This document shows, piece by piece, positions 6,201 through 38,949 of a stretch of DNA of 42,652 bases; positions within the stretch are counted from its first letter, which is position 1, and the number at the start of each line of letters is the position of its first letter. The position numbers and the translations under genes are program-made. Source of the stretch: a virus; IMG/VR virus record IMGVR_UViG_3300032011_000026, positions 1 through 42,652 of that record; one strand, given 5' to 3'. The notes beneath the pieces are model-generated. The model was not told the DNA's origin. It did not search any database and saw only the letters and a list, made by a program, of their open reading frames with translations.

Positions 6201-9200
6201 TACTGAAATGGAAGAACAGAAAGCCCCAGAAGGTAATGAAAATTGGAACTACGAAGTACTACCAGCACTGGACGTTGTTCGAGTGGCATGGAGGGTTGTT
6301 TGGAAAGAACTTGCAAAAAGAAAAAAATTACAAGACAAAAAAACGAACTTTAAAGGACTTAAAGCAGAAGATATTATACCTGATGGCTTTATTGAATCAC
6401 TTAGCGAAGATTACGGTCCAACTAAAGAGGCACCTACAGAAGATAAAACACAATACGGTAAACTTACACCAGAAATAGTAAAAGGATTTAACTCCGCCCA
6501 AGACGCTGTTGAATGGTTAATTGATAATACCGACAATCCATTATATAGGAGATTTGCTCAACGAATTAAAGATAGCATTCCTAATATTCCTATTAGATTT
6601 ATTGATAAAGATTACATAACCGCGGAGGATGGTAGTAGAGCAAGAGGTGTAGCAACTCGTAGATATGAAGATCTAGAAGACGGTTTATTCACCACCAGCA
6701 CAGGTATCTCCTTAGCTAGATCAGGAGTAAACGAATCAACATTACTACACGAACTTTTTCATGTAGCTGTAGCAGTTCTTTTTTCAGGACCAATAACTCT
6801 TAAACAAAAAGCCGCTAAACAACAATTACTCGATATAGCTACACATTTAAAGACTGTTATCGATTCTAACGAGATTAAGGGGATGCAGTTAAACCCGGAT
6901 CAAATAACTCTGCTAGATCTTATGAGAGGTCTAGAGGTTCCCGGAGATGAAAAAACTAAAAGCAACGCTGCAGTAGAAGAATTAATAACATATGCTTTAA
7001 CTAACCAACAAGCTAGGGCGCTGATGATGTCGCTTCCTGCTCTTGAGACTGGATACAAGTCTTTATGGTCAGAATTTGTAATAGCTATTCGCAAATTAAT
7101 GGGAATGGAAGATACCGAAAAGTATCCTCCGACACTATTTGATCAGATAGTCGAAAGCACAGATATACTAATAGAAAAGCCTGAAGCCAAGAAAACTAAA
7201 CAAAAACCAATTAGCAGACATTTACCTAAGGAATCCCAAAGTAAACAGGCATTCTATGTTTTATACCCGGAAATTCTTACAAAAGATGGGATCTTAGCAG
7301 AGGATAGTGTACTAGCTAAGCATTTTGAAATATTAGAATCATTAGCTACTGCATTAGGATTAAAATCCCCTGCTTTTGCGTGGAATAAAGATAAACAATC
7401 CTACTCCTATGAGAGAAAAGATATTGAGGCGGCTTTAAAAGCATTACCAGACAATAAAGATTTTTTAGAAGCAAAAATTGAGACTAGACAACTTGAAACT
7501 ACTATTACTGAAGAACAATTAAAGAAAGCTAAAACAAAACAACATGCAAGTATAGGTAAGAAAAGCGAAAAAAGCATAGCTGAACGAATAGCTGAAAACC
7601 TAGAAAATGTCTTTGGCATTTTAGGCGTATACGTTAATAAGTTAATTACTATTCGTAAGATACGAGATAAAAAAGCTCTCAATGGTATTCATACTCTCCC
7701 AGATGCTGTATTTGAGGATACTCATGCGTTTAGCGGTCTTCCAATTACAGATGCATCAGGTAAAAAACAATATAAAACTTTAGAAAGAGCTCTTATCGCT
7801 TTAGGTGTATCAGAAGAAGGTGCTGCTGAACTAGTAGAAGAATATTCAAGATATGCTAGAAAGTACGAAGCTATACGTGTAGACGGTAGAGTTTTAGATA
7901 CAGAAGGTAATCCACAAGGCAATACCGCTATTAATAAGCCGTTATCTATACTTTATAGTGAAGATCAAAATGTAACAGAATTCCCGCCTCAAATAATATT
8001 TGGAATGATGTTAGGTACCGTTACTTGGCTTCAACAAAATCCAACTAATATTAGATTTAAAAGTGATCTTGGTAGAGAAATATTTTTGTATGGAGATCAT
8101 GCTCAGCTCTCTCCTAGTGAACGAGGCCAAGTGAAGAATGTCGGGCATTCTTACACGGAAGCGGTGTCTACTGTTGGTAATAATATTATCAGTATTTTAA
8201 AGATATCAGGAAAAGATCTGGATACGGATGTTTACTATAATAATTTAAGTATAGCTTTAGGACAGCTAGCCTTGCAGGTAGAACATGGACCTCAAGAACT
8301 CACTCTTACAGACAAAACCTCGTATACACAACCAACTGTAGAATTTGAAGGAGACGAATCTAGACTTCATATAGAAGGTAAATTATGGAACTTTAAGCCT
8401 GCCAAGAAAGAAGGGCGTATTTTTAATAACGCCGATAAGAAACCGTATAAACATATTAAACTTAACCTTAAAAAAACTAGTGATGGAAAAGAAACTCCTC
8501 TTAAACTTCCTAAAGCAACTGTTGATGCTAGTAAAGAGATATTAGCAGTTATAGACGCGGATGTAGATACAGAAGGAGGTAAGCCAGCTCAAAAACCATT
8601 TCCTAAGGTTGTTGACAATATAAAGAATTCTTTAGGTGGAGTAGCTAATGAAATTAAAGATGTACTTAGTGTCCTCCAGGGAAACGATGAAAAACAACAT
8701 GTTTCATGGACGGGGACACAGTCTTTAGATATAGCAGTTAAATTAGATGAAGCAGGCGAAAAAGACGCACTTTATAAGCTTGCTGGAGTAGAGCATGTCG
8801 ATGATACTTATCATATTGTACGCCGAGAATCTATTGAAGCCTCTAATGCAGACAAAACTAACGCAATTGATGGTCTTCTAGATGCATACAATCACGAAGA
8901 CGGCAATCTACTAAAGAAGTTTTATTTTAGATATAAGCTGCAAATTCAAAACCGCATTATGATGCAGTCTTCTGGAACTATTAATCCACAAGCCAGTGGA
9001 GTTGATAGATACTATGTAAGACCTACAAAAGCTTCTGTTAAATATACCGAAAAAGATCTATGGAAATTCAAGTTATCCGTTGTCGGTAACTTTGGGTTTG
9101 AAATAGATAAAAATGACCTGACATCTGCTTTAGATGCCTTTGATTATTTAATAGCCGATGGAGATGTTTTAGAAGCTGTAAGCGCAATACAAAATATAGA

Positions 9201-12200
9201 TGAAGCAGGTCAACCAGCTAAATTAGCAAAGCTTTTATTAATTATTAAAAATAAAGAAGTCCTAGGCGAAGCGGATCACCCGTCGTCCATATTGAATGGA
9301 TTAACAGGATTAGCTCAAGGACTAACAGTAGGTAGTAATGTTACAGAAGCCGGAGAATCAGTCAAAGCAACCAAACTGGGAATACTAAAAACGGACTTTG
9401 AATCAGATGTAGTTTTAGAAATTGATGGTATATCTAGTGGATTTGCTCAAAACGCTCTTCAGTTTCCTATGTATGGGAAAGAAGGAAACGAATTACGGCG
9501 GAATCAAACAGGTACATATATTGGTCCTACAGAATCATCTACTACTCATGATCCATACAAACAAGATATTTATCAGGATGTCGGAACTAAAGTTGAGGAA
9601 TACTCTGGAGTTGATACGGCTGAATCCTTTCATCTTGGTCAAAAGAACAAAAAACCTTTTAATCGTGATCAGTATATAGCTAGAAATAATTCATTAAATG
9701 AATTGTATCCTACGCTTAAAAATGGGGATATGCGTAAACTTATTAAATACCCATTTCTTATTTTTATGTATGGTGGCGGGCCTAAGAGCATCTCTGAAGG
9801 TATTGCAGGAGATATACTATCTGAATTGTATGTACAGCTAGATTTACATCAAAGACGCTACCACAAACTTAAAACTCAAAAAGCTAAGAATGCTTATCTA
9901 AAAGAAAAGGTATTACCATTTCTGGAACATTTAAGAGTAGTAGGAGCTATTGATAACGTCGCAATATTTAGAGGGGCATTTGTAAACCCGAAAAAAGTAA
10001 AAGAAGAGCTACTTAAGGATGCAGTAGCCATTTCTCGAATATCTATTTTATTACGCCCAAGATTACAACTAGGACTGGAAAGTATTCTATTAGGTACAAA
10101 AGACGCTAGAGATGCGGCAATACAAGCAGGAGAGGTGTTACATGCTGTGTTCATGGCTCATTTCGAAAAGGCTCAAGAAGAAGCACTGATTATTCGTAAT
10201 GAAAACGGAGAAGATACTGGGCAGAGAAGACCAAATTTAACTGAAAAAGAGATTAACGAACTTATTAGAAAAGAACTAATTAGTCTATTACCTCAATACA
10301 AGGGACCTTTACAGCAAACGGATCAGTCTTTTATAGATCTGACTAAACGACAATCCTCCGAATCTGATAGTACCAGTGAAATGGTCACTATTGAGTATAA
10401 GGATCCTAAAAATAAAAGAGGAATAGGCACAGCTAGTACTACGCCGAAGCGTATGACTTTTACGTCTCCTGGCGTTAGCGCACTAATTCGTATGATCATC
10501 AATATGGATGCGGCTATATTGACTAAAACTTTAGCAGCTCACCCACATGTACTCATGCTTCATGACGCTGTAATGGGGGATCCTAATACATTAGAAGCAG
10601 CCAATACTACATATGGCAAGTGGTACGTAAAGCTTAACAGAGAATATAGTGTACTAGATTCTATTACAAAACGAATGAACGCTGTTATTGCTAAAACAGA
10701 AGCCAAGGACATAGAGAACGGTAATAATAATCTAATGGAGGCTGTAGATAGCTGGCTAATAGATAAAGCATTCATAAATCAATATGCAAAATCAAGCGAT
10801 ATAAAATCTAGAGAAGTTATTGTTCAACGTATTAATGATGTAAATAAAACCGTCCAAATAGAACGAAAAAAAGTAGAGGAGGAAATCTCTGAACGAGGAG
10901 GGAGAGTTATTTCTAGTCAATTATATATGGCTAGAAAACCTATCTTTGAAGCTACGCAAATAATCTTAGATAAAGAAAAAAATCTCCGATTAAAAATATC
11001 TAATTTAGTAGATTTAGTTTTTAAAGATGTTCCTAAAGACGTTCGAAATACGCCTTCAGAATTTGAAAAAGAAGAGCAGGCTATTAGTGAAGCATTTAGG
11101 AAAGAGATTAAAAAAGCTAAAAAAGGTAAAGGACTTTTTTATTCTTCATTACCTGACCAAAAAAGAGATAATCCTATAACAAAGTTAGTAGGAGATATCA
11201 CAAAAGAGAATATATTATCTACTTTTGCAGATATGCAAGAGCATTCCGAGAATTACTATGAAAATGATCAGGATCAAACTAGACATGCAGAAACATTACT
11301 AAGAGTACTTACTAAATTAGCTGATGGGTTGAAAGATTCCTCAGCTATTCGATTTACTCAAGAAGAGATAGACGGAATTACTCAAGGAGAATTTGATCCG
11401 GTCAGTAAGAGAGTAAGAGTATCTTTAAGTAGACAGGGTCCTTTATCTACGAATGCACAGTCTCCTCAGGAAGTATATGTGCATGAACTCGTACACGCCA
11501 TAGTTACTGTTGCATTAGATAAAAATCCTTTGTTAAGACGTAGAATAGAAAAACTATACCGACAGACTAAACAGGATTTAGCTGCTAATGACGGATACAA
11601 GATATTTTTAAATGATCCTAAGAGCAAAGACGAACAAGCAAAGAGGACTGCAAAGGAACAGTACGAATTTTTATTTACCAATCCAAAGAACGAGAAACAC
11701 AAGTTAGGTGAATTTTTAGCTTACGCTGTAACAAACAGACAACTTGTAAATTATCTATCCGGTACTAAAACTAAAATACACTACAAGTACAGAAAAGAAG
11801 AGACTCTCTTTACTAGAGCAATAGATGTATTCGAGTATTTTGTAGAACTTGCTGTAGATACTGTACTAAGAGCGTTCAATAAAAGAGGAGGTTTTGGTGC
11901 TAAAGCTAATCATGAAATGTTGGCAGTTCTCGAGGCATTAATAAATATCCAAAGTAACAATAGAAATAGACTAGAGCGGTTGCAAGATAAGCTATACAAA
12001 AATTTAGGTGATTCTGATCAATTTTTAAGAAAATTTGGTGATGAACAGGCATTAGCAATAATAGAGAGTGAACCAGCTGGTTTCCTTAAGCGCGTAGGTA
12101 GAGTTGCTGTAGGTGCCGGTTATCTTGCTATTAGTAAAAACGCCCAGACTCTGAAGACTAGGCAAATAGTATATAACGCCATGGGTGATACTTTACGCCA

Positions 12201-14646
12201 TTTAGCATTAGAGGTAGGTGAAGGAATACTTGGCAAACGACTAATCCAACAATTATTGTTCTCTAAAGTAAACGTATCTAAAGCACGTCAAGAGGCCGAA
12301 AGGTTTACTATTAAATGGTTTAACGGGATCTGGAAGTCAGTAGATGCTAGCAAACCTAAAGGAATGTCTGTAGATTTAAGAGAAAATCTAACTAATGTAA
12401 TATTTAGAACTGATTTATCCAGTCTATTAAACATGGGTCTTTCTCATGCAGAGATAGCTAGTTTTATAGGTGACAGGAGCAAAATTGATGCAAGATTAAA
12501 ATACCTTGAAAAACAAATATTAAATAAAAGACCTGCTAAGAGAAAGTACATTAACCACGCGGTGGATTATGCTAAAGAGCTTGGTGAATACATGGCTAGT
12601 GGAGATGTTGGTTTAGAAGTGGCTCATATGAATGCATTCACCATCGCAAGAAAATATTTAGCTAAACCAGAAGCCGGTGATCTGGCACTAATAGAAGCAT
12701 ACGCTACATTAACAGCCTTAAAAGCGACCAGATACGATGAAACTGCTGCTGTTAAGGAACTTGTTGATGCAGAATTTGCTGTGGATGCTACGCAGAATGG
12801 GTTTATAGATTTATTAGATAGCCATATTGAATTTGTTGACCGATCAAGAAAAGGAAATTTTGGCGGTAATCCTACACAAATGGTTAAGGGCTATATCGTA
12901 GAGAGGATAGATAACCTAACGGATATGAAAGTAGGGCTGGAGACTCAACGAAAAGATATGGAAAACGAGGGCTACCCAGAGATGTATGGATTAGGAGACA
13001 TTCCAGGACTTAAACCTGGTCAAAGAATAAACGACAAAATATTTATCGGACGAAATGCGCCTCCTATTCCTTATGTTTCTGCCATTATGTCTACGACCAA
13101 TAAACGTAATATCGGTACTACTTTAACAGAGATTTTATCAGAGAGTCCTAATTACCAAAAATCTCCTGGCGTACCTGATATGGCAAAAATAAAACAAGCG
13201 ATTCGTGATATTCATAAAGAACAGGAAAAATTGGCTTCTCGACGTAAATTAAAATTCAATAACGAATTACGATTACGCCCTGTTCTAGATGAGAAAGAAA
13301 ATGTTACTGATTATCGAGTAATCATGAACCACGTAACTCGGAAACAGTTATTAAATCCAGATTTAGAAATACAAAATGTATTCGCACATATGCAATCATC
13401 TTATATTGATCGCGTAGCTACTATTAAGAATGATAAAAGAACCATCGAGCTATTAGTATACGAACAAAAAGAAAGGCTACCATCTCACCGTGATGAGTTC
13501 ATCGATTTCTTAGACCCTGCAAATGGATTTATTGATCGTTATTACAGGCTACCTAAAGAAGTTAGAATGTATATGGATAGATTTACTAAAGACGGTAAAT
13601 TTATGGTTAGGAAAGACGCCGTTAATAAAATATTTGGGTACCAAGCAAGAGACTTGAGAAATATACCTGGGCTTAACCATCCTAGTATGGTTCATATAAA
13701 AAGGTTTGCAGGACTATTTCACTATATTCTCAGACAAATTATTGGCTATGGAAAGGATCGTATAGTCATAGCTATGCCGCAGGTATGGTTATACAACGCA
13801 TATTCTAACATAGCACAGTTAATGATGAGGAACATTCCTCTACCTTATATAATTCATAAGACTATTGAGGGATTTCATGAATACCAAGCATATCGTAACG
13901 ATACAGAAGAACGTAGAGAGCTTAAAAATACTATTAATATTAAAAATTTAGATAAAAAAAATAGTCCAGAAGCTATACAAGTAGCAGCATTAACAGTACG
14001 TATAGAGGGTAACAAGATTCATGCTATGAGTGCTGCAGGGTTGAATTCGCTTATTGTGGAGGATCTGAATGATGCTTCATTGGATGGATATATCAATCGT
14101 GGACGGAGATATTTGAAAACAAACAAGTGGTATAATGCGTCAGATAGGTTATCTACTACAGGGCATTCTGTAGCGGCTAATATTTTTATGACTAGAAGTA
14201 CAGGACCCTATCAGGTTATGCGTCAGATCGTGCAAATGACGGACTTCTTGGGTAGGTATGTGATGATGCAGCATGCTATGGAAATACGTGGGCTAGATTT
14301 TAATACAGCTATGCATGAAGCATTAGACGCATTTGTATTATTTGATGAAGCATTAGCTCCTGCTTTAGAGTCTTTAGAATCTCTTGGTGCTACTGTATTT
14401 TTATCGTACTTTTTACGTAATCAAAGATCAGCACGTCAAGTAGCTATGAGAAATCCTACTGGAGTAGCTATATCTGGAGCATTTCAATATTCGACCGGTA
14501 TACCAACATTAGGAAATTTAGACAGTGCATTTATAGCTGGGGATATAATGCCTACTACGATGTATTTAGATGAGCTATTTGACGAGGCTAATAACCCAAC
14601 AGGAGCAGATCTGCTAAACCAGGCATTAGGGGACATATTTAGTTAG
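220..14646 (+). CDS. Giant N4-like virion RNA polymerase with AlkB, zincin and other accessory domains
   Basis: A 4808-residue protein; N4 vRNAP is about 3500. T7-family polymerase motifs are visible. A probable motif T has R2912 followed by INPQ. Motif A is DGISSG with D3069. Motif B is R3172-x3-K3176-x7-Y3184-G. Motif C is HDA with D3449. The gaps D to K (107) and Y to D (265) are close to those of N4 vRNAP (111 and 273) and unlike T7. Upstream are a lysine/glutamate-rich coiled region (to about 1200), HEKSH (1271-1275, possible third ligand E1303), an FGDN...GIPTK domain (from about 1350), an AlkB-type dioxygenase (about 1700-1910: H1827-A-D1829, H1889 or H1891, RISMTFR at 1900-1906) and HELFH (2177-2181). 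After the polymerase come HELVH (3755-3759) and a C-terminal part of about 900 residues, probably for packaging as in N4. Expected to be injected with DNA and to transcribe early genes from hairpin promoters. The accessory activities are inferred from motifs only. Its stop shares four bases with the convergent minus-strand gene. Confidence 0.93.
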   Translation: MGSIADDVAAAKASFSPNLASAKQDAAITIAEAKSSLLQESVPSPLSQHLQRQRFSDIAIKARKEFLESLPDPKRVIKTENNIQFLADGTFNLISATGEILRNISKKELPDLLRIEEGRLKDLEKQERLGMKATPLTGLGAVGVDVTGKIIGGAAEIGSDITQIGTPAQTLTEEVDRYNQSFAHERSKATISESMRLDKEPPPNLISKEELAKYQKVKKAMREDAPLSAADTEYVNTSEKFNTIAGLESKVHRSSKTYDKIEEISKDIQSHIPTKHADDIAVSLAYKRVAKEEGIPAALWRTLTQDWQHLVQQGFESIPYMIAFTAGGPITQAGVLYTLAVSKAREITTTFMKEHDRDPDTNERMRIEFFAGASTVAEKFGDMAAVRAIPFAKFGRATGILKQITDTSSDAVKKAISKTSFTSKVGKGLGNTALALGGEGVSGGLTATFDQLAAAGKITDPAQIGFDALAEAVGTVGGLGGMVAGKALYNTAKLPFTPSREERRIQEELAYLDKAIASEKPIKVKDTGQGQPIQDEIDTLNEGLENIKDPEQRKIKLEQIRQNLSKAGKDDSEAEAILEEYIAGDTKRRDELTAALEKVLPKEVFEKRKAAILAEQKERQESKAKKKLLKTKEGKEARIAEIDKEIEAVRAKEGFIDAEAIRKLEEEKQGLTEGLDSFATKIKRTFVGDVDPRFEDPQEPVDDRTYTPLEDAEFNKLVKSIDVEKLTDPATDPAELDEALNKIAEIHKYKELTDSQDQILSKIKDELAEVDPRFKEGPLTSIKGVVNATEEQLKKQLRIAKKNKKTEDIKLINAELKRKVKQAELKKIENQKTMGEVHSQVVDGPGTRWKGIHTYYDEIVKTVAEIKDKVIAEDAVINIIQRMSTHVGNLKRKQEAFTAAYNKPTLKKGIRVVRGTAGEGRVMKYTEEVMSVKAFRAARKKNEYVTAIFKEKKKGFGYTSEGLIKKVGLEVEYGNEFLTVVEGFRETSFSRAAAELDARRKALKEKQAKAAKVRFKLKKALILNKKTQDSLDALFKTKSNKELQKYIIEKREEIKQLKNISEKAQEEAVLAYAVLAFNARTPEKKKKKEKESKPKPGTAFSNEKVWPIKRLKKSIATLQGQIDKATNPKAIWQKNIDSMTAELERRGVDVKGEASITKKLLLEAKKTFDAFTGIIEELNNKKVGVIDSDKTQALAQASSTSLNPTIVLNIKAIVEDFQNDMAYLDGKGEGIHANTSRQKAEVFKNVDVPAFKKFIRDNGGIAAYINFIYQHEKSHIINKDGAKYPKKKDGTTDIMHADSIAIERSANAYAFEKIGFKAAETTKSESKTRFGKVTYWKGKWTVKDIQKNSNKIFIFGDNLLKKGKLGQAIIRELMNAFGIPTKKAPSTTTDSYFTDDELEDNKLYINAAFLKIETGKDIFLPQAGLGTGLAKLAEKAPETLKYIQSILSYMEENSELPPYVERKAKLEVIQNYAKRMITEFIPKTAREKHLKKELLKAKVATQFIGAGKQHSSTDVYREIYDRIGLANTGEYTSKDTIFIASNGNRYGRVIPVGTNGKLRGVYTNVDLAIEAGATIIMDTAGHLADSNYNVGEMELAEYLKKKEYVRQGKTGVWKKQPAKGEQGTKTLTEADIKILREHKWQPFDPGPDEVPTALFSDAEIESYIKDPSQIQRDITSLTPLASLEPDWEKRRLQKIKNDTLAVDIDKANAKIDVLKSLSVMKEEKTPPTEVEHYKGSSKELVFSTIKELIEGLSKSSAKKAKWISTWFGPIAYEYSGGNEIINHPAQEMPEKFAKIARGLEGKLGYPEGYFNSALMNVFPKEVGIGKHADDEEIYGADDQEQTIGAVATVSLGGTSAVKITSNDGKKQWNLKIEDGDVYIMPGGNFQRKHKHQVGKSSSPRISMTFRHVPKNRITEQQDPIEHPDAKVLNAAKNVTLGNVLELLKSLTHKLKDSDERIHVSDEYKKAYENVLIKFTTLVEKKVEKESNASLMFGITEMEEQKAPEGNENWNYEVLPALDVVRVAWRVVWKELAKRKKLQDKKTNFKGLKAEDIIPDGFIESLSEDYGPTKEAPTEDKTQYGKLTPEIVKGFNSAQDAVEWLIDNTDNPLYRRFAQRIKDSIPNIPIRFIDKDYITAEDGSRARGVATRRYEDLEDGLFTTSTGISLARSGVNESTLLHELFHVAVAVLFSGPITLKQKAAKQQLLDIATHLKTVIDSNEIKGMQLNPDQITLLDLMRGLEVPGDEKTKSNAAVEELITYALTNQQARALMMSLPALETGYKSLWSEFVIAIRKLMGMEDTEKYPPTLFDQIVESTDILIEKPEAKKTKQKPISRHLPKESQSKQAFYVLYPEILTKDGILAEDSVLAKHFEILESLATALGLKSPAFAWNKDKQSYSYERKDIEAALKALPDNKDFLEAKIETRQLETTITEEQLKKAKTKQHASIGKKSEKSIAERIAENLENVFGILGVYVNKLITIRKIRDKKALNGIHTLPDAVFEDTHAFSGLPITDASGKKQYKTLERALIALGVSEEGAAELVEEYSRYARKYEAIRVDGRVLDTEGNPQGNTAINKPLSILYSEDQNVTEFPPQIIFGMMLGTVTWLQQNPTNIRFKSDLGREIFLYGDHAQLSPSERGQVKNVGHSYTEAVSTVGNNIISILKISGKDLDTDVYYNNLSIALGQLALQVEHGPQELTLTDKTSYTQPTVEFEGDESRLHIEGKLWNFKPAKKEGRIFNNADKKPYKHIKLNLKKTSDGKETPLKLPKATVDASKEILAVIDADVDTEGGKPAQKPFPKVVDNIKNSLGGVANEIKDVLSVLQGNDEKQHVSWTGTQSLDIAVKLDEAGEKDALYKLAGVEHVDDTYHIVRRESIEASNADKTNAIDGLLDAYNHEDGNLLKKFYFRYKLQIQNRIMMQSSGTINPQASGVDRYYVRPTKASVKYTEKDLWKFKLSVVGNFGFEIDKNDLTSALDAFDYLIADGDVLEAVSAIQNIDEAGQPAKLAKLLLIIKNKEVLGEADHPSSILNGLTGLAQGLTVGSNVTEAGESVKATKLGILKTDFESDVVLEIDGISSGFAQNALQFPMYGKEGNELRRNQTGTYIGPTESSTTHDPYKQDIYQDVGTKVEEYSGVDTAESFHLGQKNKKPFNRDQYIARNNSLNELYPTLKNGDMRKLIKYPFLIFMYGGGPKSISEGIAGDILSELYVQLDLHQRRYHKLKTQKAKNAYLKEKVLPFLEHLRVVGAIDNVAIFRGAFVNPKKVKEELLKDAVAISRISILLRPRLQLGLESILLGTKDARDAAIQAGEVLHAVFMAHFEKAQEEALIIRNENGEDTGQRRPNLTEKEINELIRKELISLLPQYKGPLQQTDQSFIDLTKRQSSESDSTSEMVTIEYKDPKNKRGIGTASTTPKRMTFTSPGVSALIRMIINMDAAILTKTLAAHPHVLMLHDAVMGDPNTLEAANTTYGKWYVKLNREYSVLDSITKRMNAVIAKTEAKDIENGNNNLMEAVDSWLIDKAFINQYAKSSDIKSREVIVQRINDVNKTVQIERKKVEEEISERGGRVISSQLYMARKPIFEATQIILDKEKNLRLKISNLVDLVFKDVPKDVRNTPSEFEKEEQAISEAFRKEIKKAKKGKGLFYSSLPDQKRDNPITKLVGDITKENILSTFADMQEHSENYYENDQDQTRHAETLLRVLTKLADGLKDSSAIRFTQEEIDGITQGEFDPVSKRVRVSLSRQGPLSTNAQSPQEVYVHELVHAIVTVALDKNPLLRRRIEKLYRQTKQDLAANDGYKIFLNDPKSKDEQAKRTAKEQYEFLFTNPKNEKHKLGEFLAYAVTNRQLVNYLSGTKTKIHYKYRKEETLFTRAIDVFEYFVELAVDTVLRAFNKRGGFGAKANHEMLAVLEALINIQSNNRNRLERLQDKLYKNLGDSDQFLRKFGDEQALAIIESEPAGFLKRVGRVAVGAGYLAISKNAQTLKTRQIVYNAMGDTLRHLALEVGEGILGKRLIQQLLFSKVNVSKARQEAERFTIKWFNGIWKSVDASKPKGMSVDLRENLTNVIFRTDLSSLLNMGLSHAEIASFIGDRSKIDARLKYLEKQILNKRPAKRKYINHAVDYAKELGEYMASGDVGLEVAHMNAFTIARKYLAKPEAGDLALIEAYATLTALKATRYDETAAVKELVDAEFAVDATQNGFIDLLDSHIEFVDRSRKGNFGGNPTQMVKGYIVERIDNLTDMKVGLETQRKDMENEGYPEMYGLGDIPGLKPGQRINDKIFIGRNAPPIPYVSAIMSTTNKRNIGTTLTEILSESPNYQKSPGVPDMAKIKQAIRDIHKEQEKLASRRKLKFNNELRLRPVLDEKENVTDYRVIMNHVTRKQLLNPDLEIQNVFAHMQSSYIDRVATIKNDKRTIELLVYEQKERLPSHRDEFIDFLDPANGFIDRYYRLPKEVRMYMDRFTKDGKFMVRKDAVNKIFGYQARDLRNIPGLNHPSMVHIKRFAGLFHYILRQIIGYGKDRIVIAMPQVWLYNAYSNIAQLMMRNIPLPYIIHKTIEGFHEYQAYRNDTEERRELKNTINIKNLDKKNSPEAIQVAALTVRIEGNKIHAMSAAGLNSLIVEDLNDASLDGYINRGRRYLKTNKWYNASDRLSTTGHSVAANIFMTRSTGPYQVMRQIVQMTDFLGRYVMMQHAMEIRGLDFNTAMHEALDAFVLFDEALAPALESLESLGATVFLSYFLRNQRSARQVAMRNPTGVAISGAFQYSTGIPTLGNLDSAFIAGDIMPTTMYLDELFDEANNPTGADLLNQALGDIFS

Positions 14647-17210: not shown

Positions 17211-17936
17211 TTATTTGTAATATTCATGAAGTCGGTTAATAACGTTTTGCAAGTTGTTATCGATATAAGTTTCGTTTCTAGGCCACATATCCATGGGACT
17301 ACGAATCCTCTCGTTAACAGTTTCTTTAGTTAATCGAGTTTGAAATACATGTTTAAATCCGTTATCTATGTCGTCTGGGGTAGCTTTAAATAGTGGGGAC
17401 TTAGCTATTTTATCCTCTAATTTACTCATAGCTACTTTTTTAGTAGATATAACACAAGTAAAGAAACTTTCGATACCTTGATTCATCAAGGATCCTTTAA
17501 CTTTAACCAAAGTCTCATTTACCATTTCAGCTTCGTTAAGAACGTCGGTAGTGTGAGCTAAAAATACTACATTTTTGGTAGATTTAGCCACTATCTGAGA
17601 CATTAGTAATTTCATATATTGCGCGTATTGTCCCCATGCTTGCATTGTATTTGTTGAATTCAGTACTTTTGTACTTTCATACATATCCATTAAATAGGTA
17701 AGACTATCAATAACTATAGTATGTATGTCTTTCATTTTTTCAGCTTTGTCAAAAGCTTCATAAACTTGATTTGGATCAACGACAGTGTATTCTTTAAATT
17801 TACTTTTGAATGGTAATTTCTTCCCATTTTCACAATTTAAATACATAACTCCTTCAGGCTTATCCATATTCATTAAACTGGCACTTTTACCTGAACTGGA
17901 TTTACCTGAAACTAGTACTAAATGATTATTATTCAT
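17211..17936 (-). CDS. RecA-fold ATPase, Sak4-like (N4 gp44 position)
   Basis: 241 residues. The P-loop is at the N-terminus (VSGKSSSGKSAS, residues 9-20) and a Walker B-like strand is HTIVIDSLTYLMD (about residues 76-88). A later strand ends in FLAHTTD, where RecA-like proteins carry a polar sensor. This layout fits short phage RecA/Sak4-type ATPases used in single-strand annealing and recombination. It overlaps the primase-helicase gene by four bases and lies upstream of the SSB gene, its likely partner. The exact subfamily is inferred. Confidence 0.8.
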   Translation of the reverse strand: MNNNHLVLVSGKSSSGKSASLMNMDKPEGVMYLNCENGKKLPFKSKFKEYTVVDPNQVYEAFDKAEKMKDIHTIVIDSLTYLMDMYESTKVLNSTNTMQAWGQYAQYMKLLMSQIVAKSTKNVVFLAHTTDVLNEAEMVNETLVKVKGSLMNQGIESFFTCVISTKKVAMSKLEDKIAKSPLFKATPDDIDNGFKHVFQTRLTKETVNERIRSPMDMWPRNETYIDNNLQNVINRLHEYYK

Positions 17937-20095
17937 GCATCTTCCTTTCTTTTTTGGAATTCTTTACTAATTGATTTAATTGTACTATTCCTGAATTGTT
18001 CTTCTGGTAAAGGTACTTCTAAAGAGTTATTAAACGTCTCTAGCTTTTCTACTATTTCACCTAATGGATAGTTTCCATCTATCAATACCATACCGTACCT
18101 GTACAAATGATTAGCTCTATTACCTTTAGATGTATGTGTCCTAAACCATCGTTCGATATTACCGAAGCCAGTAGCACTAATATGTGCTTTTGTCTCGTCA
18201 GATCGTTTAGTTTCTGGAATAAACATAGTAGCGTCAATGACATTCCCTTTATTATATTCATACTTTCCAGGGTGAGTAGCCCACTTTCTAGCTATATCCT
18301 TGGCACCTTCATCTACTGGAAAGGGTAACCATTCGAATACATTCATCATAAATCTAGAGTATTCTCCGGTGGTTAATTTAATTCTATGAGATAGAGGCAA
18401 AATAAGCCTAAATCTATTAATTTCTGGAGTATGTCGTTTAGTTGTAGACATAAGAAACGTGTAATCTTCTAATAACACCTTAACTGTGGACATATTGATA
18501 TCCCCATCACAATCAAGAATAAGCAAATCAAACCCAGGGATTACATTCTCATTTTTACGATGCCCATTAATAAATCCATGAGCCGTATAGTGATATCCAT
18601 CTGCAGTAGTTAACTTATGTAACAAATCAAATGGAGGGTTATCTGTTTGATAATGATACGCTATGTCCTTACTAATGCCGACAGTTAGATGGGTAAGATC
18701 TGTTTCTGCCAAAGTTTCCCCATTAAAAAATTCAATTTCGTCTAACATCCGCTTTTTGATAATAATGTTGTTTCTGTACCCAAAAGACATAGCTAAAGTC
18801 ATTAAATCCTTTCGCTGGCCTTCTGAGCCTTTGTAGAATGGTAGTTCTTCCATTAACTCATGTTGAGTCACGTCGTTATCACAATCGGCCAAATAATGAG
18901 CTAAACGCTCATACGGACCTTGTTTACGCATTAATTGATGAAAGGCTTCTCCTGAGTCCTCAACAACGCTAATAGCGTAATTCAGGTGATCCTGTGTTAC
19001 TTTTGTTGAATTATCCGCAAATGCATAAGCACCCGCTAATTTAATAGCTTTGTAGTATCTATGTATCATTTCTGCTTTGTGAAGACTCATATGGTCTTTC
19101 ATATCGTCAGCTAGTTCCTCGCATTTTAACTGGTACTCAATTAAATGAATATGGTCATCTTCCGATACTTGCAGTATTGGATTGAAGGATCTTTTAGCAA
19201 AGTTAGTAAATTCCTGCTGAATTGCTAACATGTCTTTGGCCAAATTAGGGTCAACCATCTGCTGGTAACGTTCTTGTGCAGATGCATACTTAGTTCGATG
19301 ACTATCTGTCGTATACCCGAATAGTAATCTACGAGCATATCCAGTTTCGAGAAATTGTTTAAATTCCTCTTCTATTTTTCCACCATCTAGTAGTTTGGTC
19401 GGAGTGCCAAACATCATTAGATTAGTAGGAGTATTCCCTGGTAGTTCTTCTGATCTAATGTTTTCTTGTGTATTTTTTATAAGTTTTTGTTTTACAAGGC
19501 CTACGTCGTAAAGTTCAAGAAATACATTTAACACATCAGCATTTGCAGACATATTTGATCCGACTTCATCTAGTTCCAGATTCATGGAACCTGCAGAAGC
19601 TAATAGTAATTTTTCACGCATTTGTTTAACAGCTGGAGAAGTCCCACTGTCAAAACTAAAAGCTAATTCTCCTAAACGATCAAAATGTTTTTGAAATTCC
19701 CCATGTTGAAATTCAGTTTCTTCATCTAATGTTAATGTGGTTTGCCCAATATTAACTCTCCATGCAGCTCTGTCTTGAGCTAAATTTTGGATACTTTGCT
19801 CAGCTTTCTTGGGAAATACATTATTTAAAAATTCTTTTTTAAAATACGCTATAAATTCTCGTTCTAGAATATTAGTAGAGTGCCCCTTACCTGTTCCTGA
19901 TACCATCAGATTTAATACATAAGTATTAACCGGGATTACGTCTCTATCGTTTGTTTGAATATTGCACCGCATCATAGATGCTACTTTCGATAAATAGTAC
20001 GCAGTTAGAATTCTAAAAAAATGTCGATTATCATTGTTAACTTTACGAACAAGGATATCGACTATTCTTTCAGAAAACGGGTGGTATTTCTTCAT
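17933..20095 (-). CDS. Primase-helicase fusion (P-loop ATPase plus AEP primase-like domain), N4 gp43-like
   Basis: 720 residues. The N-terminal half has a P-loop (SGTGKGHST, residues 66-74) and Walker B (LELDEVGS, D176-E177), with an arginine-rich segment at GYARRLLFGY (about 252-261), consistent with a DUF3987-like helicase core. The C-terminal half has an archaeo-eukaryotic primase signature: LILDCDGDI (D528, D530, D532) then STTKRHTPEINRFRLILPL (550-568). AEP enzymes place catalytic acids on such a DxD strand and a His/Arg-rich strand follows. It probably primes and unwinds DNA at the phage fork. It is the N4 gp43 equivalent by position. Confidence 0.85.
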   Translation of the reverse strand: MKKYHPFSERIVDILVRKVNNDNRHFFRILTAYYLSKVASMMRCNIQTNDRDVIPVNTYVLNLMVSGTGKGHSTNILEREFIAYFKKEFLNNVFPKKAEQSIQNLAQDRAAWRVNIGQTTLTLDEETEFQHGEFQKHFDRLGELAFSFDSGTSPAVKQMREKLLLASAGSMNLELDEVGSNMSANADVLNVFLELYDVGLVKQKLIKNTQENIRSEELPGNTPTNLMMFGTPTKLLDGGKIEEEFKQFLETGYARRLLFGYTTDSHRTKYASAQERYQQMVDPNLAKDMLAIQQEFTNFAKRSFNPILQVSEDDHIHLIEYQLKCEELADDMKDHMSLHKAEMIHRYYKAIKLAGAYAFADNSTKVTQDHLNYAISVVEDSGEAFHQLMRKQGPYERLAHYLADCDNDVTQHELMEELPFYKGSEGQRKDLMTLAMSFGYRNNIIIKKRMLDEIEFFNGETLAETDLTHLTVGISKDIAYHYQTDNPPFDLLHKLTTADGYHYTAHGFINGHRKNENVIPGFDLLILDCDGDINMSTVKVLLEDYTFLMSTTKRHTPEINRFRLILPLSHRIKLTTGEYSRFMMNVFEWLPFPVDEGAKDIARKWATHPGKYEYNKGNVIDATMFIPETKRSDETKAHISATGFGNIERWFRTHTSKGNRANHLYRYGMVLIDGNYPLGEIVEKLETFNNSLEVPLPEEQFRNSTIKSISKEFQKRKEDA

Positions 20096-21187: not shown

Positions 21188-21596
21188 GTTTTTTCTCCTT
21201 AAGTTTTTGTATTCGTATTTTTTCTCCTTTAGCTCTATTTGTTTTAAAACATTCTTCTAACCCACATGTTTTTTTATTATGATGTCTGGTTTCTATCTTT
21301 ACACCACATTCTGGGCATTTAAATTTACGAAGAGAATTTGGGTAAGTTCTTCTTTTAATACGTTCTCGCCCGCATTTATCTGATCCGCACGTAATTTGAT
21401 TAGTTCTACCTTCTACTTCTTTCTTACAAATTACACATACAACCAATATTCCATTAGCTCTTTTAGATTTTTGTCCCCAAGGTGTTTTTCCAATACTATC
21501 GGATATTTGTGCGTATTTAGAGTCGTATAATTTTTGTGCATTAATAACTTTAAGTAGTTTTCCTTTTGGACTAAATACTTTTATATCATGAAGCAT
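21159..21596 (-). CDS. Double zinc-ribbon protein
   Basis: 145 residues with two four-Cys groups: CVICKK...CGSDKC (about residues 54-75) and CPECG...CGLEEC (about 94-116). The rest is strongly basic, ending KEKKHGKRKKING. The layout suggests a small nucleic-acid-binding protein. It follows the tRNA gene by 17 bases and overlaps the next gene. Phages often carry such Zn-ribbon proteins near replication genes; partner and role are unknown. Confidence 0.75.
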   Translation of the reverse strand: MLHDIKVFSPKGKLLKVINAQKLYDSKYAQISDSIGKTPWGQKSKRANGILVVCVICKKEVEGRTNQITCGSDKCGRERIKRRTYPNSLRKFKCPECGVKIETRHHNKKTCGLEECFKTNRAKGEKIRIQKLKEKKHGKRKKING

Positions 21597-21613
21597 TTTT
21601 TTCCCTTTAGTTG

Positions 21614-21688
21614 TGTCCTTGGATGGAATCGAACCATCGCCCCACCGTTCTAACGAAGCAGTTGCTCTACCAACTGAGCTACAAGGAC
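21614..21688 (-). tRNA. tRNA, anticodon probably GUU (Asn), atypical anticodon arm
   Basis: A 75-base cloverleaf on the minus strand: acceptor GTCCTTG/CAAGGAC, D arm GCTC-AGTTGGTA-GAGC, T arm GATGG-TTCGATT-CCATC and A as discriminator. No CCA is encoded. The anticodon arm is two bases longer than standard. Pairing CTGCT with AACGG (one C-A mismatch, one G-T) leaves the loop TCGTTAG with GTT in the anticodon position, but base 33 would then be C rather than T. A register with ACTGC/ACGGT gives a nine-base loop. The anticodon is therefore uncertain. Confidence 0.85.
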
Positions 21689-21918
21689 TAGTTATTATTA
21701 ATTCCTAAATTATCTCTTATTTTTTTAAGACTTTCTTCTGGAAGGTGACCTGATTTAGGTTCTAGCTTATCAGGACATTCAAAATAATCTTTAAATATTT
21801 CTTTGAATATTCTTTCAACCATCTCTTTATAACTATTAGTATCATAATGTTTAATCATTATTTCACCAATTACTTCCTGACATCTAAGAATATCTTGTTG
21901 TAATTTTGCCATATTCAT
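21688..21918 (-). CDS. Small protein of unknown function
   Basis: 76 residues (or 74 from the second ATG, 21912) after AAAAGGAGGCAGT. Helical, acidic, with KEIFKDYFECPDKLEPKSG in the middle. It lies between the structured intergenic region and the tRNA; its stop is next to the first tRNA base. No family recognised. Confidence 0.65.
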   Translation of the reverse strand: MNMAKLQQDILRCQEVIGEIMIKHYDTNSYKEMVERIFKEIFKDYFECPDKLEPKSGHLPEESLKKIRDNLGINNN

Positions 21919-21939
21919 ACTGCCTCCTTTTAAATGAAT

Positions 21940-22340
21940 GGCGTGGCAATGAGCTACGCTGTTGTATCGTTACCACTTTAATGACCCATAAAACTAGTAT
22001 TAGCTCTTGGCCAACCATATCTACACTAAGCGGTCACTATGCAAACCGCGCGTAGAACCTCTGCCAAATCTGCCCAAGTCTTAGGGCTCTTGGCAGTCGG
22101 TTAATTAGTAGAGGAGTAGCAATGCATACTATATGATAGCAACTGTGCTCCAGCCTATAGGATCAAAAGTATACATTGCTCAACAATCTTAAGATTTAAC
22201 CGCCTCCACTTCTAGCTTCGCAGGCCATAAACCCTTTACTTCCAGAGAATCAGTTTTACAGGGTACGGAGCGACCGCAACTCCCAACTCCTACGGGTTAA
22301 GCTTCTAAGGCTCCTCGTTAAGACTATTGTTCCTCTCCCC
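21940..22340 (-). ncRNA. Candidate large structured RNA in a 424-bp gene-free stretch
   Basis: No credible gene lies between 21919 and 22342. Nested complementary segments fill it. They are 22118-22129 with 22169-22180 (12 bp; the one imperfect pair is G-U only in a minus-strand RNA), 22098-22104 with 22196-22202 enclosing that helix, 22061-22067 with 22090-22096 with an inner GCCC/GGGC, 22021-22024 with 22052-22055 enclosing GCGGT/ACCGC, 22231-22235 with 22260-22264, and GGAG/CTCC near 22267-22283. The position next to a tRNA in a phage recalls ornate RNAs such as GOLLD and ROOL, but membership is not established. Confidence 0.55.
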
Positions 22341-22342
22341 AG

Positions 22343-23353
22343 TTACACAGCCAATCTACCGGCTGTTAATAAGTTTGCAGCTTGATGACATATCTCTTCA
22401 GCTGAACAGTAATTACATCTCCTGACGGGTCCTTGGACATGTTTAATTGTTCCTACGTTTCCATCACTAGCTTGTTTTTTTAGTGCTTCATCCATAGTTG
22501 GAAAATTACCAGAGGATCTTTTAGTTTTCTCTGGATTTTTATAGTACTTATATACGCTTTCATGCTCTTTAACCCAAAGTTCTTCGTTAGTACATTCTGG
22601 TAATTCTGACTGTGATAAATCACAAATAGATTTAAATTGTTCGAGTCTGTCTATTATCCATTTTTCAGTTTCTTCAATACTCCATAATGGATACCTTCTA
22701 CTTGCAACTTTTATAGCTGGATATGTTTCTTTGTAATGAGGTTTTGGTGAATGTTTTCTAAGCCCGTTTCTACCCCAATCTGTAAAGATATAGTGAATAT
22801 GCACGTGGTCACTAGTGATTTTTTCTGGATTTAACCATTTGTAGATACTACCTTGTTTAATATAGTCATTTATGCTACTGCCATTAATAAATGACCACAC
22901 ACTTGCAGATTTATAATCATTAACCTCGCCATCTAAAATTAAATCATACGCACCTGTAATAATAAAATCATTAATTTTTTTCTCTGTTCGTTGTTCGATA
23001 TATACGGGAGTCTCTCCTGGCATTGGATTTTCAGGATTGAGGCGTAATTTATCTATAACGCTATCCGCTGCTCCAAATAGTTCTAATGCCTTTACTACAT
23101 TATTTCTGTCTGTCCAAGCTTCTTCACAAGCTGAATGTATAGCAGACCCCATACGAAGAGCTATTAATTCTGAGACATCCACAGTTTTTGATTTTTCAGG
23201 ATTTTGTCTTATTAATGTAAGCTCGCGTAGAGGTCTTATGAGTTTAGTAGCACTAATTACATTAGGCCTATCATCATAGCCATATTTGTCACGCATTAAA
23301 AATACAGCTAGTGGTAGCGGTATTTCATGTTTATTTGTGTATTTAAATGCCAT
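22343..23353 (-). CDS. PD-(D/E)XK (RecB/Cas4-like) exonuclease
   Basis: 336 residues. The nuclease core is seen as GAYDLILDGEVNDYKSAS, with D137 and the D146-Y-K148 pair in the usual order, and an upstream helix with H73 (GSAIHSACEE) that matches the His motif of RecB-type nucleases. A late Cys cluster (RRCNYCSAEEICHQA, about residues 313-327) may hold metal, as in Cas4/AddB-like proteins, although only three Cys are obvious. Probably processes DNA ends in replication or recombination. The start has the GGGAGATAGCTAA context seen at several genes in this window. Confidence 0.82.
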   Translation of the reverse strand: MAFKYTNKHEIPLPLAVFLMRDKYGYDDRPNVISATKLIRPLRELTLIRQNPEKSKTVDVSELIALRMGSAIHSACEEAWTDRNNVVKALELFGAADSVIDKLRLNPENPMPGETPVYIEQRTEKKINDFIITGAYDLILDGEVNDYKSASVWSFINGSSINDYIKQGSIYKWLNPEKITSDHVHIHYIFTDWGRNGLRKHSPKPHYKETYPAIKVASRRYPLWSIEETEKWIIDRLEQFKSICDLSQSELPECTNEELWVKEHESVYKYYKNPEKTKRSSGNFPTMDEALKKQASDGNVGTIKHVQGPVRRCNYCSAEEICHQAANLLTAGRLAV

Positions 23354-31842: not shown

Positions 31843-31903
31843 TAAACAGCTCCTAAATTTAAGTACTATTAAGTGTTTTAGGCACTATAATATTAAGTAT
31901 GAA

Positions 31904-32002
31904 AGGTAAGCCATGGAATACCTGACAGGTAATTAAGCTAGATGGATTTGGTCTCTTTCAATAGCGTGACTAAACACACCGAGACTGCTCCATGGCCTAC
32001 CT
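31904..32002 (-). ncRNA. Candidate three-way-junction RNA
   Basis: Two ends pair in a 14-bp helix: 31904-31917 with 31989-32002. The only non-Watson-Crick pair is A-C on the plus strand but G-U in a minus-strand RNA, which favours a minus-strand transcript. Inside are a perfect hairpin TACCT-GAC-AGGTA (31919-31931) and a longer arm closed by GTCTC/GAGAC (31951-31955 with 31981-31985). It begins directly after the T run of the RNA polymerase terminator. No known RNA family is recognised. Confidence 0.5.
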
Positions 32003-32036
32003 AAAAAAAAATGACCTCCCCAATTAAGGGAAGGCC
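32003..32036 (-). terminator. Intrinsic terminator after the RNA polymerase gene
   Basis: Minus strand: GGCCTTCCC-TTAATT-GGGGAGGTC, a nine-pair stem with two G-T pairs, followed by ATTTTTTTT. It lies 75 bases after the RNA polymerase stop and ends its transcript. Confidence 0.8.
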
Positions 32037-35933: not shown

Positions 35934-36001
35934 ATTGCACCTCCTATCGATAGGATTAAAGAATTAAGGTATCACCATGACACCTTTTTAGGGCTTTGAA
36001 A

Positions 36002-36021
36002 CCCCGTAAGGGCTTCAGCCC
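36002..36021 (-). promoter_or_regulatory. Candidate vRNAP hairpin promoter Pe
   Basis: The template (plus) strand reads CCCC-GTAA-GGGC-TTCA-GCCC. The hairpin GGGC/GCCC is followed toward the gene by four bases and then CC, so a transcript would start with GG at 36005, 72 bases before the ATG at 35933. Confidence 0.65.
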
Positions 36022-36065
36022 GTTCTGTAGTTTATCTTTCTACCCTCTATTTAATGATTTAAACG

Positions 36066-36188
36066 TGATTGCTTGCAATCATCACCTTTATCTTTTACTC
36101 CAATGCTTTAAATCGATAGCAATGGTCATGCCTTGCGCCTCTTCTTTATGCAAGGACATGCCATTGCGATAAATGCGTAAGCATTTAT
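36066..36188 (-). other. Gene-free stretch with three successive hairpins
   Basis: The gap from 35934 to 36291 has no gene. Besides the promoter it holds TGATTGC/GCAATCA (36066-36081), a long imperfect hairpin GCAATGG...CCATTGC with inner CATG and CTTGC/GCAAG parts (36119-36167), and ATAAATGC-GTAA-GCATTTAT (36169-36188). In minus-strand RNA they would be in the tail of the 36292-36702 transcript or part of a small RNA. A further hairpin GTGCC-TCC-GGCAC is at 36227-36239. Confidence 0.5.
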
Positions 36189-36255
36189 TCTATGCTTTAT
36201 TTTTTTAATATAAATAGTCAAGCGCAGTGCCTCCGGCACGAGCTTGTATACCTTT

Positions 36256-36284
36256 AAAAAACGAACAAGGGCACGAATGTGCCC
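36256..36284 (-). terminator. Terminator hairpin with ATTC loop
   Basis: Minus strand GGGCAC-ATTC-GTGCCC, then TTGTTCGTTTTTT. It follows the stop of the 136-residue gene by eight bases. The loop and the flanking GCCA are the same as in the terminator at 38591-38625, while one stem pair differs compatibly. Confidence 0.7.
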
Positions 36285-36291
36285 TGGCTCT

Positions 36292-36727: not shown

Positions 36728-37003
36728 TTAATGATTATCTGCGTCATAATCGATCCAATCACCTCTAGCTTGTTCTTTTGTTAAACCACCTCCTGTGTTA
36801 AGTAATTCCCATAGGTTAGCATTCTTACGCTTAAGATCTGCTATTTCTAGCTTTAGCTTCTTGTTAGATTCAACAAACACGTTTCTTAAACGTCTTGCTG
36901 ATCTTAGCTGAGCTTCAAGATCAGCTTTAGCAGTAATTAATGCTTCTGTAGCTTTAATTAATTCTGCTTCTTGATTTTTAACGTTTAATCTCATTTCAGG
37001 CAC
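36728..37003 (-). CDS. Coiled-coil early protein
   Basis: 91 residues from GTG 37003, chosen because ATGGAGGAGATATT precedes it at normal spacing. Residues about 10-65 form a heptad-rich helix (LIKATEALITAKADLEAQL, then KLKLEIADLKRKNANL). The gene follows hairpin promoter Pd and a leader with a strong terminator-like hairpin, so it may be attenuated. No family recognised. Confidence 0.7.
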   Translation of the reverse strand: MPEMRLNVKNQEAELIKATEALITAKADLEAQLRSARRLRNVFVESNKKLKLEIADLKRKNANLWELLNTGGGLTKEQARGDWIDYDADNH

Positions 37004-37030
37004 AATATCTCCTCCATGTTTATGATTAAT

Positions 37031-37099
37031 AAAAAGAGGTTGGCGCGCGTTCTTATCGTTCGGTTCCTTTACGAGGAACTGTGCGCGCTTAACCCAACC
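37031..37099 (-). terminator. Strong leader terminator or attenuator
   Basis: Minus strand: GGTTGG and GCGCGC pair with GCGCGC and CCAACC around an inner GTTCCT/AGGAAC hairpin, followed by TCTTTTTATT. It begins three bases after the predicted start of promoter Pd and ends before the ribosome-binding site of the gene at 37003. It may also end transcripts of the DUF4326 gene. Confidence 0.75.
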
Positions 37100-37118
37100 T
37101 CCTTTAGAGCTTCAGCTC
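37099..37118 (-). promoter_or_regulatory. Candidate vRNAP hairpin promoter Pd (variant stem)
   Basis: Template strand reads TCC-TTTA-GAGC-TTCA-GCTC. The second stem pair is A-T rather than G-C, a compensated change that keeps the hairpin. Predicted start GG at 37102. Confidence 0.65.
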
Positions 37119-37125
37119 CTTTTTA

Positions 37126-37440
37126 TTAAGTTAATTGTTGGCAATACATGCATTCACATGCGTCTGTATGATCAATAAGTGAAGTCATATCAGCATACTT
37201 CTTTAGCACGTCACCATGGCATGCCTTCGGTTTACAAAAGCATCCTAATCGTTTATCTTTTAATTCATGTAGATCTTGCATAAGTTCTTTATTATTAACT
37301 AAGTACTCTTCAAACTTAGCAATGTTCTCTTCCCGCGTACCTTTACTAAATGGGTTACCCCATTTACCACTCTGTTTCTTACCACTGCGCCCAATATAAA
37401 CGTCATAAGGTTTCTTATATAGATTAACAACAGTAGTCAT
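37126..37440 (-). CDS. DUF4326 family protein
   Basis: 104 residues. Matches the DUF4326 pattern: VVNLYKKPYDVYIGRSGKK, then KWGNPFSKG, then an ELKDKRLGCFCKPKACHGDV segment, where the Cys/His residues could bind metal or a nucleotide. This family is widespread in phages and its biochemical role is, as far as I know, undetermined. Hairpin promoter Pc lies 34 bases upstream; the start has GGATATAGCT before ATG. Confidence 0.85.
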   Translation of the reverse strand: MTTVVNLYKKPYDVYIGRSGKKQSGKWGNPFSKGTREENIAKFEEYLVNNKELMQDLHELKDKRLGCFCKPKACHGDVLKKYADMTSLIDHTDACECMYCQQLT

Positions 37441-37470: not shown

Positions 37471-37490
37471 CTCCTAAGGGGCTTCAGCCC
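37471..37490 (-). promoter_or_regulatory. Candidate vRNAP hairpin promoter Pc
   Basis: Template strand reads CTCC-TAAG-GGGC-TTCA-GCCC; the stem can extend by two more pairs. Predicted start GG at 37474, 34 bases before the DUF4326 ATG. Confidence 0.7.
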
Positions 37491-38463: not shown

Positions 38464-38483
38464 TCCCTTATGGGCTTCAGCCC
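38464..38483 (-). promoter_or_regulatory. Candidate vRNAP hairpin promoter Pb
   Basis: Template strand reads CCC-TTAT-GGGC-TTCA-GCCC. Predicted start GG at 38467, 38 bases before the ATG at 38429. Confidence 0.7.
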
Positions 38484-38929: not shown

Positions 38930-38949
38930 TGCCTTTAGGGCTTCAGCCC
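38930..38949 (-). promoter_or_regulatory. Candidate vRNAP hairpin promoter Pa
   Basis: Template strand reads GCC-TTTA-GGGC-TTCA-GCCC. Predicted start GG at 38933, 33 bases before the ATG at 38900. It is the most upstream of the five leftward copies. Confidence 0.7.

Follow-up and report, generated by a model that had tools for sequence, protein, structure and literature searches.

The slot between the exonuclease and primase genes in an uncultivated clade of N4-like phages is a hot spot for the gain, loss and reordering of folded RNA modules. We show this by comparing a virus contig with related loci; the sequence comparisons give good support to the RNA families and to their shuffling. The RNAs belong to several families that are absent from Rfam. 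In the window (the whole 42,652-base virus contig analyzed here), the slot holds an array of three independently folding modules, A, C and D, read from the minus strand. The features concerned are as follows.

17933-20095, minus strand: primase gene (phrog_2135, E 2.3e-276), the downstream border of the hot-spot region
21613-21688, minus strand: tRNA-Asn (GTT), from tRNA prediction and Rfam
21688-21918, minus strand: 76-aa ORF from the ORF list, downstream of the array
21937-22017, minus strand: module D, ~81 nt, stopping just short of the ribosome site of the 76-aa ORF
22018-22102, minus strand: module C, ~85 nt, made of hairpins C1 (22061-22102) and C2 (22019-22060); also in L084 (there upstream of A), L138 and L133, with C1 alone in L139
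22108-22336, minus strand: module A, 229 nt, a three-way-junction RNA (P1, P2 and a P3 arm) around a nearly invariant 150-nt core, defined by covariance model and covariation
22116-22180, minus strand: P3 arm of module A, helix 22118-22129 / 22169-22180 with its loop, optional in relatives
22180-22330, minus strand: core of module A as modeled (R1), used for identities to relatives and for the covariance model
22213-22227, minus strand: covarying core hairpin with loop CUGCGAA, three of its four pairs changed on both sides
22343-23353, minus strand: exonuclease gene (phrog_2139, E 1.4e-111), the upstream border of the slot
31892-32004, minus strand: module J, after the RNA polymerase gene and outside the array, with a second copy in the L138 array (670-774)

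The virus is an N4-like phage by gene content. A PHROG profile scan detected a 4808-aa ORF for an N4-type virion RNA polymerase (phrog_2206), which counts with phrog_2135, phrog_2166 and phrog_2051 among the N4-like marker matches. The scan also detected genes for an N4-like RNA polymerase, terminase, ssDNA-binding protein, DNA polymerase, helicase, exonuclease, ligase and primase. The giant virion RNA polymerase, the N4-type RNA polymerase and the N4-type primase by which such phages are recognized are all encoded in the window. The 4808 aa of the virion RNA polymerase ORF (220-14646, plus strand) compare with a length of 3406 for the matching PHROG model, and its residues 1744-1907 resemble an alkylated-DNA-repair protein (phrog_21963).

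The array is an insertion relative to the one isolate inspected. The primase matches 470 phage records, all at <60% identity, the first listed being Sinorhizobium phage ort11 (46.8%). This N4-like phage (Schitoviridae) shares the exonuclease-primase gene order with the window; however, its primase gene is overlapped by a gp42-like gene that occupies the exonuclease position, with nothing between, whereas the window has an array, small ORFs and a tRNA inserted there. Judging from this single isolate, these elements were either gained in the uncultivated clade or lost elsewhere. A PHROG search with the 76-aa ORF returned no match. Downstream of the slot, the position of the tRNA gene is nearly constant but its anticodon differs (Asn, Gln, Tyr and unclear ones) among the window, L002-L014, L083, L088, L090 and L097.

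The gap between the exonuclease stop codon (22343) and the start of the 76-aa ORF (21918) contains no ORF of at least 60 aa (21919-22342), and its GC content is 43-48% versus mostly 26-38% around it. A first-pass annotation of the sequence had described a gene-free stretch filled with helices here, and this is borne out: the stretch is GC-rich and its minus strand folds well (-132.9 kcal/mol, z -2.65, 2 of 100 shuffles as good), compared with -102.5 kcal/mol for the plus strand (z -1.67, 3 of 100 shuffles as good). For the whole gap, 60 shuffles gave z -2.54 (minus) and -1.00 (plus). Folding by itself is thus only moderately beyond chance, and it is the comparison of relatives that settles the presence of a structured RNA. 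The annotated long-range helix, whose single non-Watson-Crick pair becomes G-U on the minus strand, was confirmed; its arms (22118-22130 and 22168-22180) are 13 nt long, 92% complementary and 37 nt apart. The same annotation placed the RNA beside a phage tRNA. The tRNA-Asn is indeed nearby, but the 76-aa ORF intervenes.

Module A is a conserved RNA with compensating changes in its helices. Querying with the exonuclease brought in 80 loci, one of which, L014 (same contig as L083), carries a homologue of the gap; the module A members themselves came from pattern scans of viral contigs with core stretches and from profile searches. Module A occurs in 12 records: the window, L083, L084, L086, L088, L089, L090, L093, L094, L095, L096 and L097. 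These hold 10 distinct core sequences, since L088 is identical to L090 and L086 to L089; L097 is truncated at the 5' end. Applied to 23 sources, a covariance model built on the 151-nt core finds those 12 and none in the 11 other loci, and detects a single copy each in 11 of 17 whole records. Core identity to the window is 96.7% in L096, 94.7% in L083, 94.0% in L088 and 91.4% in L094, falling to 68-69% in L086 and L093.

The covariation among relatives that the first-pass annotation had named as a check is present in the core, and the outcome that it had named as refuting, uncompensated loss of the helices, is not what the relatives show there. When the 10 distinct rows are fitted to the model, 96.7% of cells pair and 13 of 31 pairs change on both sides, giving a covariation score of 0.264 versus 0.140 in shuffled alignments (0 of 500 as high). 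Pairing falls to 27-45% once the partners are offset by 1-3 columns. Covariation is plainest in the hairpin with loop YUGCGAA, whose stem appears as GGC/GCU, GGC/GCC, GAC/GUC, AGC/GCU and UGC/GCA. The helix 22287-22293 / 22263-22270 hardly varies and is therefore unproven, and single-sequence folds of the core disagree between members. The P3 arm diverges in sequence and keeps most of its pairing in all six rows computed (the L097 row was left out). By eye, P3 is absent from L095, where P1 and P2 are fused into one long helix, and is replaced in L086 by merely a small hairpin. The P2 alignment of L086, L089 and L093 is that fitted to the covariance model; the hand alignments omit L089 and L090, the duplicates of L086 and L088. 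We do not claim that the 7-nt loops CUUAGAA and CUGCGAA, which we considered as T-loops, dock a tRNA elbow: L094 has CAUAGAA, which weakens the first, and CUGCGAA may be a GNRA-type loop.

The other modules form families of their own. Profile searches matched module D in 15 loci (14 distinct), B in eight and C in five (one being half of C; this half copy, in L139, was left out of the rows counted), while short matches to B in L130 and L131 (E 0.01-0.02) were dropped. Module F was found through its constant internal loop in 17 loci, 13 of them distinct. In F, 98.6% of cells are paired and 14 of 23 pairs change on both sides, with 51 cells so changed versus 14.0 after shuffling; the search also required at least five flanking pairs, so that the innermost P1 pairs are partly selected for. 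In D, 99.3% of cells are paired and 4 of the 10 predicted pairs change on both sides, a count reached by 3 of 500 shuffles. Patterns in the invariant parts served to find every F locus and some of the D loci, so the invariance of D and F is partly built in. The two copies of module J have closing stems of differing sequence. In module B, complementary invariant segments, matched by eye and without variation, suggest a pseudoknot. Further folded-looking stretches (E, G, H, X and X') each occur in one kind of contig only. Pattern matches with no profile match (L082, L085, L087, L091, L092 and L107-L120; best L108, E 0.059) were discarded. L007 and L008 carry at 4986-5079, between the exonuclease and an HNH-like ORF, another covarying module with a conserved interior and closing stems that differ yet pair.

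Wobble pairs identify the functional strand. The ratio of G-U to A-C cells on the sense strand is 27:4 in A, 29:1 in F and 7:1 in D, which marks the strand transcribed with the neighboring genes as the functional one. Together with the compensating changes in relatives, this upholds the earlier claim of a structured RNA on the minus strand. Compensatory changes across relatives on one strand, the general mark of a structured noncoding RNA, are present.

Module content varies extensively at the exonuclease-primase slot. The orders, 5' to 3', are:

Window: A-C-D
L083 and L097: A-B-D
L096: A-E-B-D
L084: C-A-B-F
L088/L090: A-D
L133: X-B-C-D
L139: half-C-B-D
L138: F-C-J-D
L136: X'-D-F
L134: D-F
L135: D
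L002-L013: F

We find that module content does not follow descent: the nearest relatives by exonuclease, L002 (73.9%) and L003 (69.7%), are without module A, whereas the more distant L088 (56.2%) and L083 (54.1%) carry it at 94-95% nucleotide identity. Modules also occur away from the slot. Module A lies beside a different gene set in L086, L089 and L093 (PolA-type polymerase, Sak4-like and CobT-like, as scanned in L086), and outside the slot in L094 (same contig as L139) and L095. In L129, and in L132 by the same flanking sequence, module B sits where a Holliday-junction resolvase gene ends; module D follows a Sak4-like gene in L129. Neither D nor F is tied to one downstream gene (L140, L129, L134 and L136). 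All loci read have their modules in gene sense. An ORF that we take from its motifs to be HNH-like precedes the array in L096 and L136, and by eye it is apparently cut short relative to longer versions in L002-L013.

This separability bears on the first-pass proposal of one ornate RNA of about 400 nt. The helices fall into three separate modules, and since the parts occur separately and in other orders, a single 400-nt RNA is unsupported. Circular permutation of one RNA, suggested by L084, was dropped once the modules were seen to be separable.

Searches of databases returned no convincing match to a known family. At the gathering threshold, the Rfam covariance-model search proposed by the first-pass annotation matched only the tRNA in the whole window, and only tRNAs in 13 related loci; at E up to 10 around the gap, the matches were all weak, to eukaryotic or viral families and far under their gathering scores. 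No model of a known self-cleaving ribozyme or intron in Rfam matched. The suggestion of a class outside Rfam thus holds. Among GenBank phages, two matches (32 nt and 22 nt, each E 0.5) were taken as chance, and two other arrays used as queries gave no match. Plasmids yielded no match to the array, and bacterial and archaeal genomes yielded nine pattern matches, none of which the profile accepts as a member (best E 0.08 and 0.11). We found no description of a modular phage RNA system in the literature, which is weak evidence of absence as most subscription papers were not covered.

Three known kinds of phage element invite comparison. GOLLD and ROOL are large structured phage-encoded RNAs of unknown function, often near tRNA islands; one ROOL has 659 nt, many GOLLD members exceed 800 nt, GOLLD has a conserved 3' region, and Rfam holds GOLLD, ROOL and OLE (PMC12286853). 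The first-pass annotation likened the window RNA to these, and the array is likewise a phage-encoded structured RNA near a tRNA. It could accordingly be pictured as a single large RNA, folding whole and multimeric, like the homo-oligomeric nanocages that characterize GOLLD and ROOL, with D as a constant 3' part, recalling that of GOLLD, and the rest as a variable 5' part. However, Rfam searches of the window and its relatives gave neither family, and there is no other match in sequence or structure. A occurs without D (L094, L095 and L086), D occurs without A (L135 and L140), and the array, as the annotation had remarked, is shorter than typical members at ~400 nt. By these tests the array is not GOLLD or ROOL, and a large RNA of their kind is very unlikely. 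Sharp borders and shuffling, together with the HNH-like ORFs in the same slot, could instead point to DNA-level mobile or recombination elements, MITE-like or PeSL-like, whose folding is incidental. In T4-type phages, PeSL cassettes combine an early promoter with a stem-loop terminator and, as intergenic stem-loop elements, are linked with shuffling between phage genomes (Arbiol 2010 and Comeau 2014, as cited in PMC4503421). The window modules differ in their size (80-230 nt) and covarying complex structure, and show no PeSL-type promoter or terminator motif. Stems that change sequence yet keep pairing, as terminal repeats need not, G-U pairs on one strand, and one copy of module A per matching record (11 of 11) further make this the most improbable reading. 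Another possibility is that module A processes the transcript as a self-cleaving or splicing ribozyme of a new kind; it has a large invariant core inside variable helices and an optional arm, and occurs across phage types. Theta ribozymes (HDV-like) of gut phages are structured RNAs associated with phage tRNAs, being adjacent to them with a cleavage site at the tRNA 3' end (PMC10879173). The window RNA, in contrast, lies upstream of its tRNA with an ORF between. Module A is located between genes and not within one, and no Rfam family matches, ribozymes included; we consider a ribozyme highly unlikely.

The more serious alternative is that the modules act in cis, remaining in the polycistronic mRNA and controlling stability, processing or translation of the surrounding genes, as intercistronic insulators or as binding sites for phage or host proteins. 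The modules are always in gene sense in the loci read, the array directly adjoins a stop codon on one side and a ribosome site on the other, and in most arrays D or F directly precedes the same small ORF, as expected of a cis element; this last observation stands against action in trans. No sigma-70-like promoters and no terminators were found in 21500-22800 (phage-type promoters lie outside that scan), so that a separate transcript is not indicated. On the other hand, the same module precedes unrelated ORFs (L140 and L129), and the same ORF is preceded by different modules. Cis-acting mRNA elements are also usually smaller than module A, with its 150 nearly invariant nt. We regard control in cis as plausible, if somewhat improbable.

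We favor accessory RNAs that act in trans, a predicted function that we hold to be evenly poised between right and wrong. The modules would be transcribed with the operon on a longer transcript, like the tRNA in the same gene run. As accessory RNA genes, they would fold and then be cut free or protected in place, and would act on a host or phage protein or RNA. The acting parts would be the invariant ones, namely the core of module A and the constant internal loops. Our leading guess at the purpose is counter-defence or host take-over, since turnover of the array resembles that of an accessory-gene island; no target can be read from the sequence. Tentatively, the slot may be a phage island of folded RNAs, in which cassettes are swapped and reordered like anti-defence protein genes, each yielding a trans-acting RNA. 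Module A would then represent a large functional RNA of a new class, common to different phage types and serving as a protein-binding scaffold, a decoy or a ribozyme.

Large structured RNAs of phages, GOLLD and ROOL among them, continue to puzzle. What is surprising here is not the size of the RNA; it is that its parts are traded between phages as small, separable, covarying domains that have been recombined repeatedly, so that each can be tested alone. If trans action is correct, phages carry accessory RNA islands besides accessory protein islands; if cis action is correct, they carry a set of interchangeable parts for controlling mRNA. In both cases, family models can now be built from at least three new alignments (A, D and F).

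Other folded elements lie outside the slot. The strongest-folding intergenic gap in the window is 35934-36291 (minus strand), with several hairpins (z -7.38 minus, -5.13 plus). A second intergenic element with GC-rich stems lies at 37003-37130 (minus strand; z -3.11 minus and -4.90 plus for 37004-37125), with no copy among the relative loci compared. The sequence GGCTGAAGCC occurs four times at the early-gene end, always on the minus strand (36011-36020, 37480-37489, 38473-38482 and 38939-38948), versus 0.06 expected. We guess that the repeated small hairpins with this sequence are perhaps promoter hairpins of the virion RNA polymerase.
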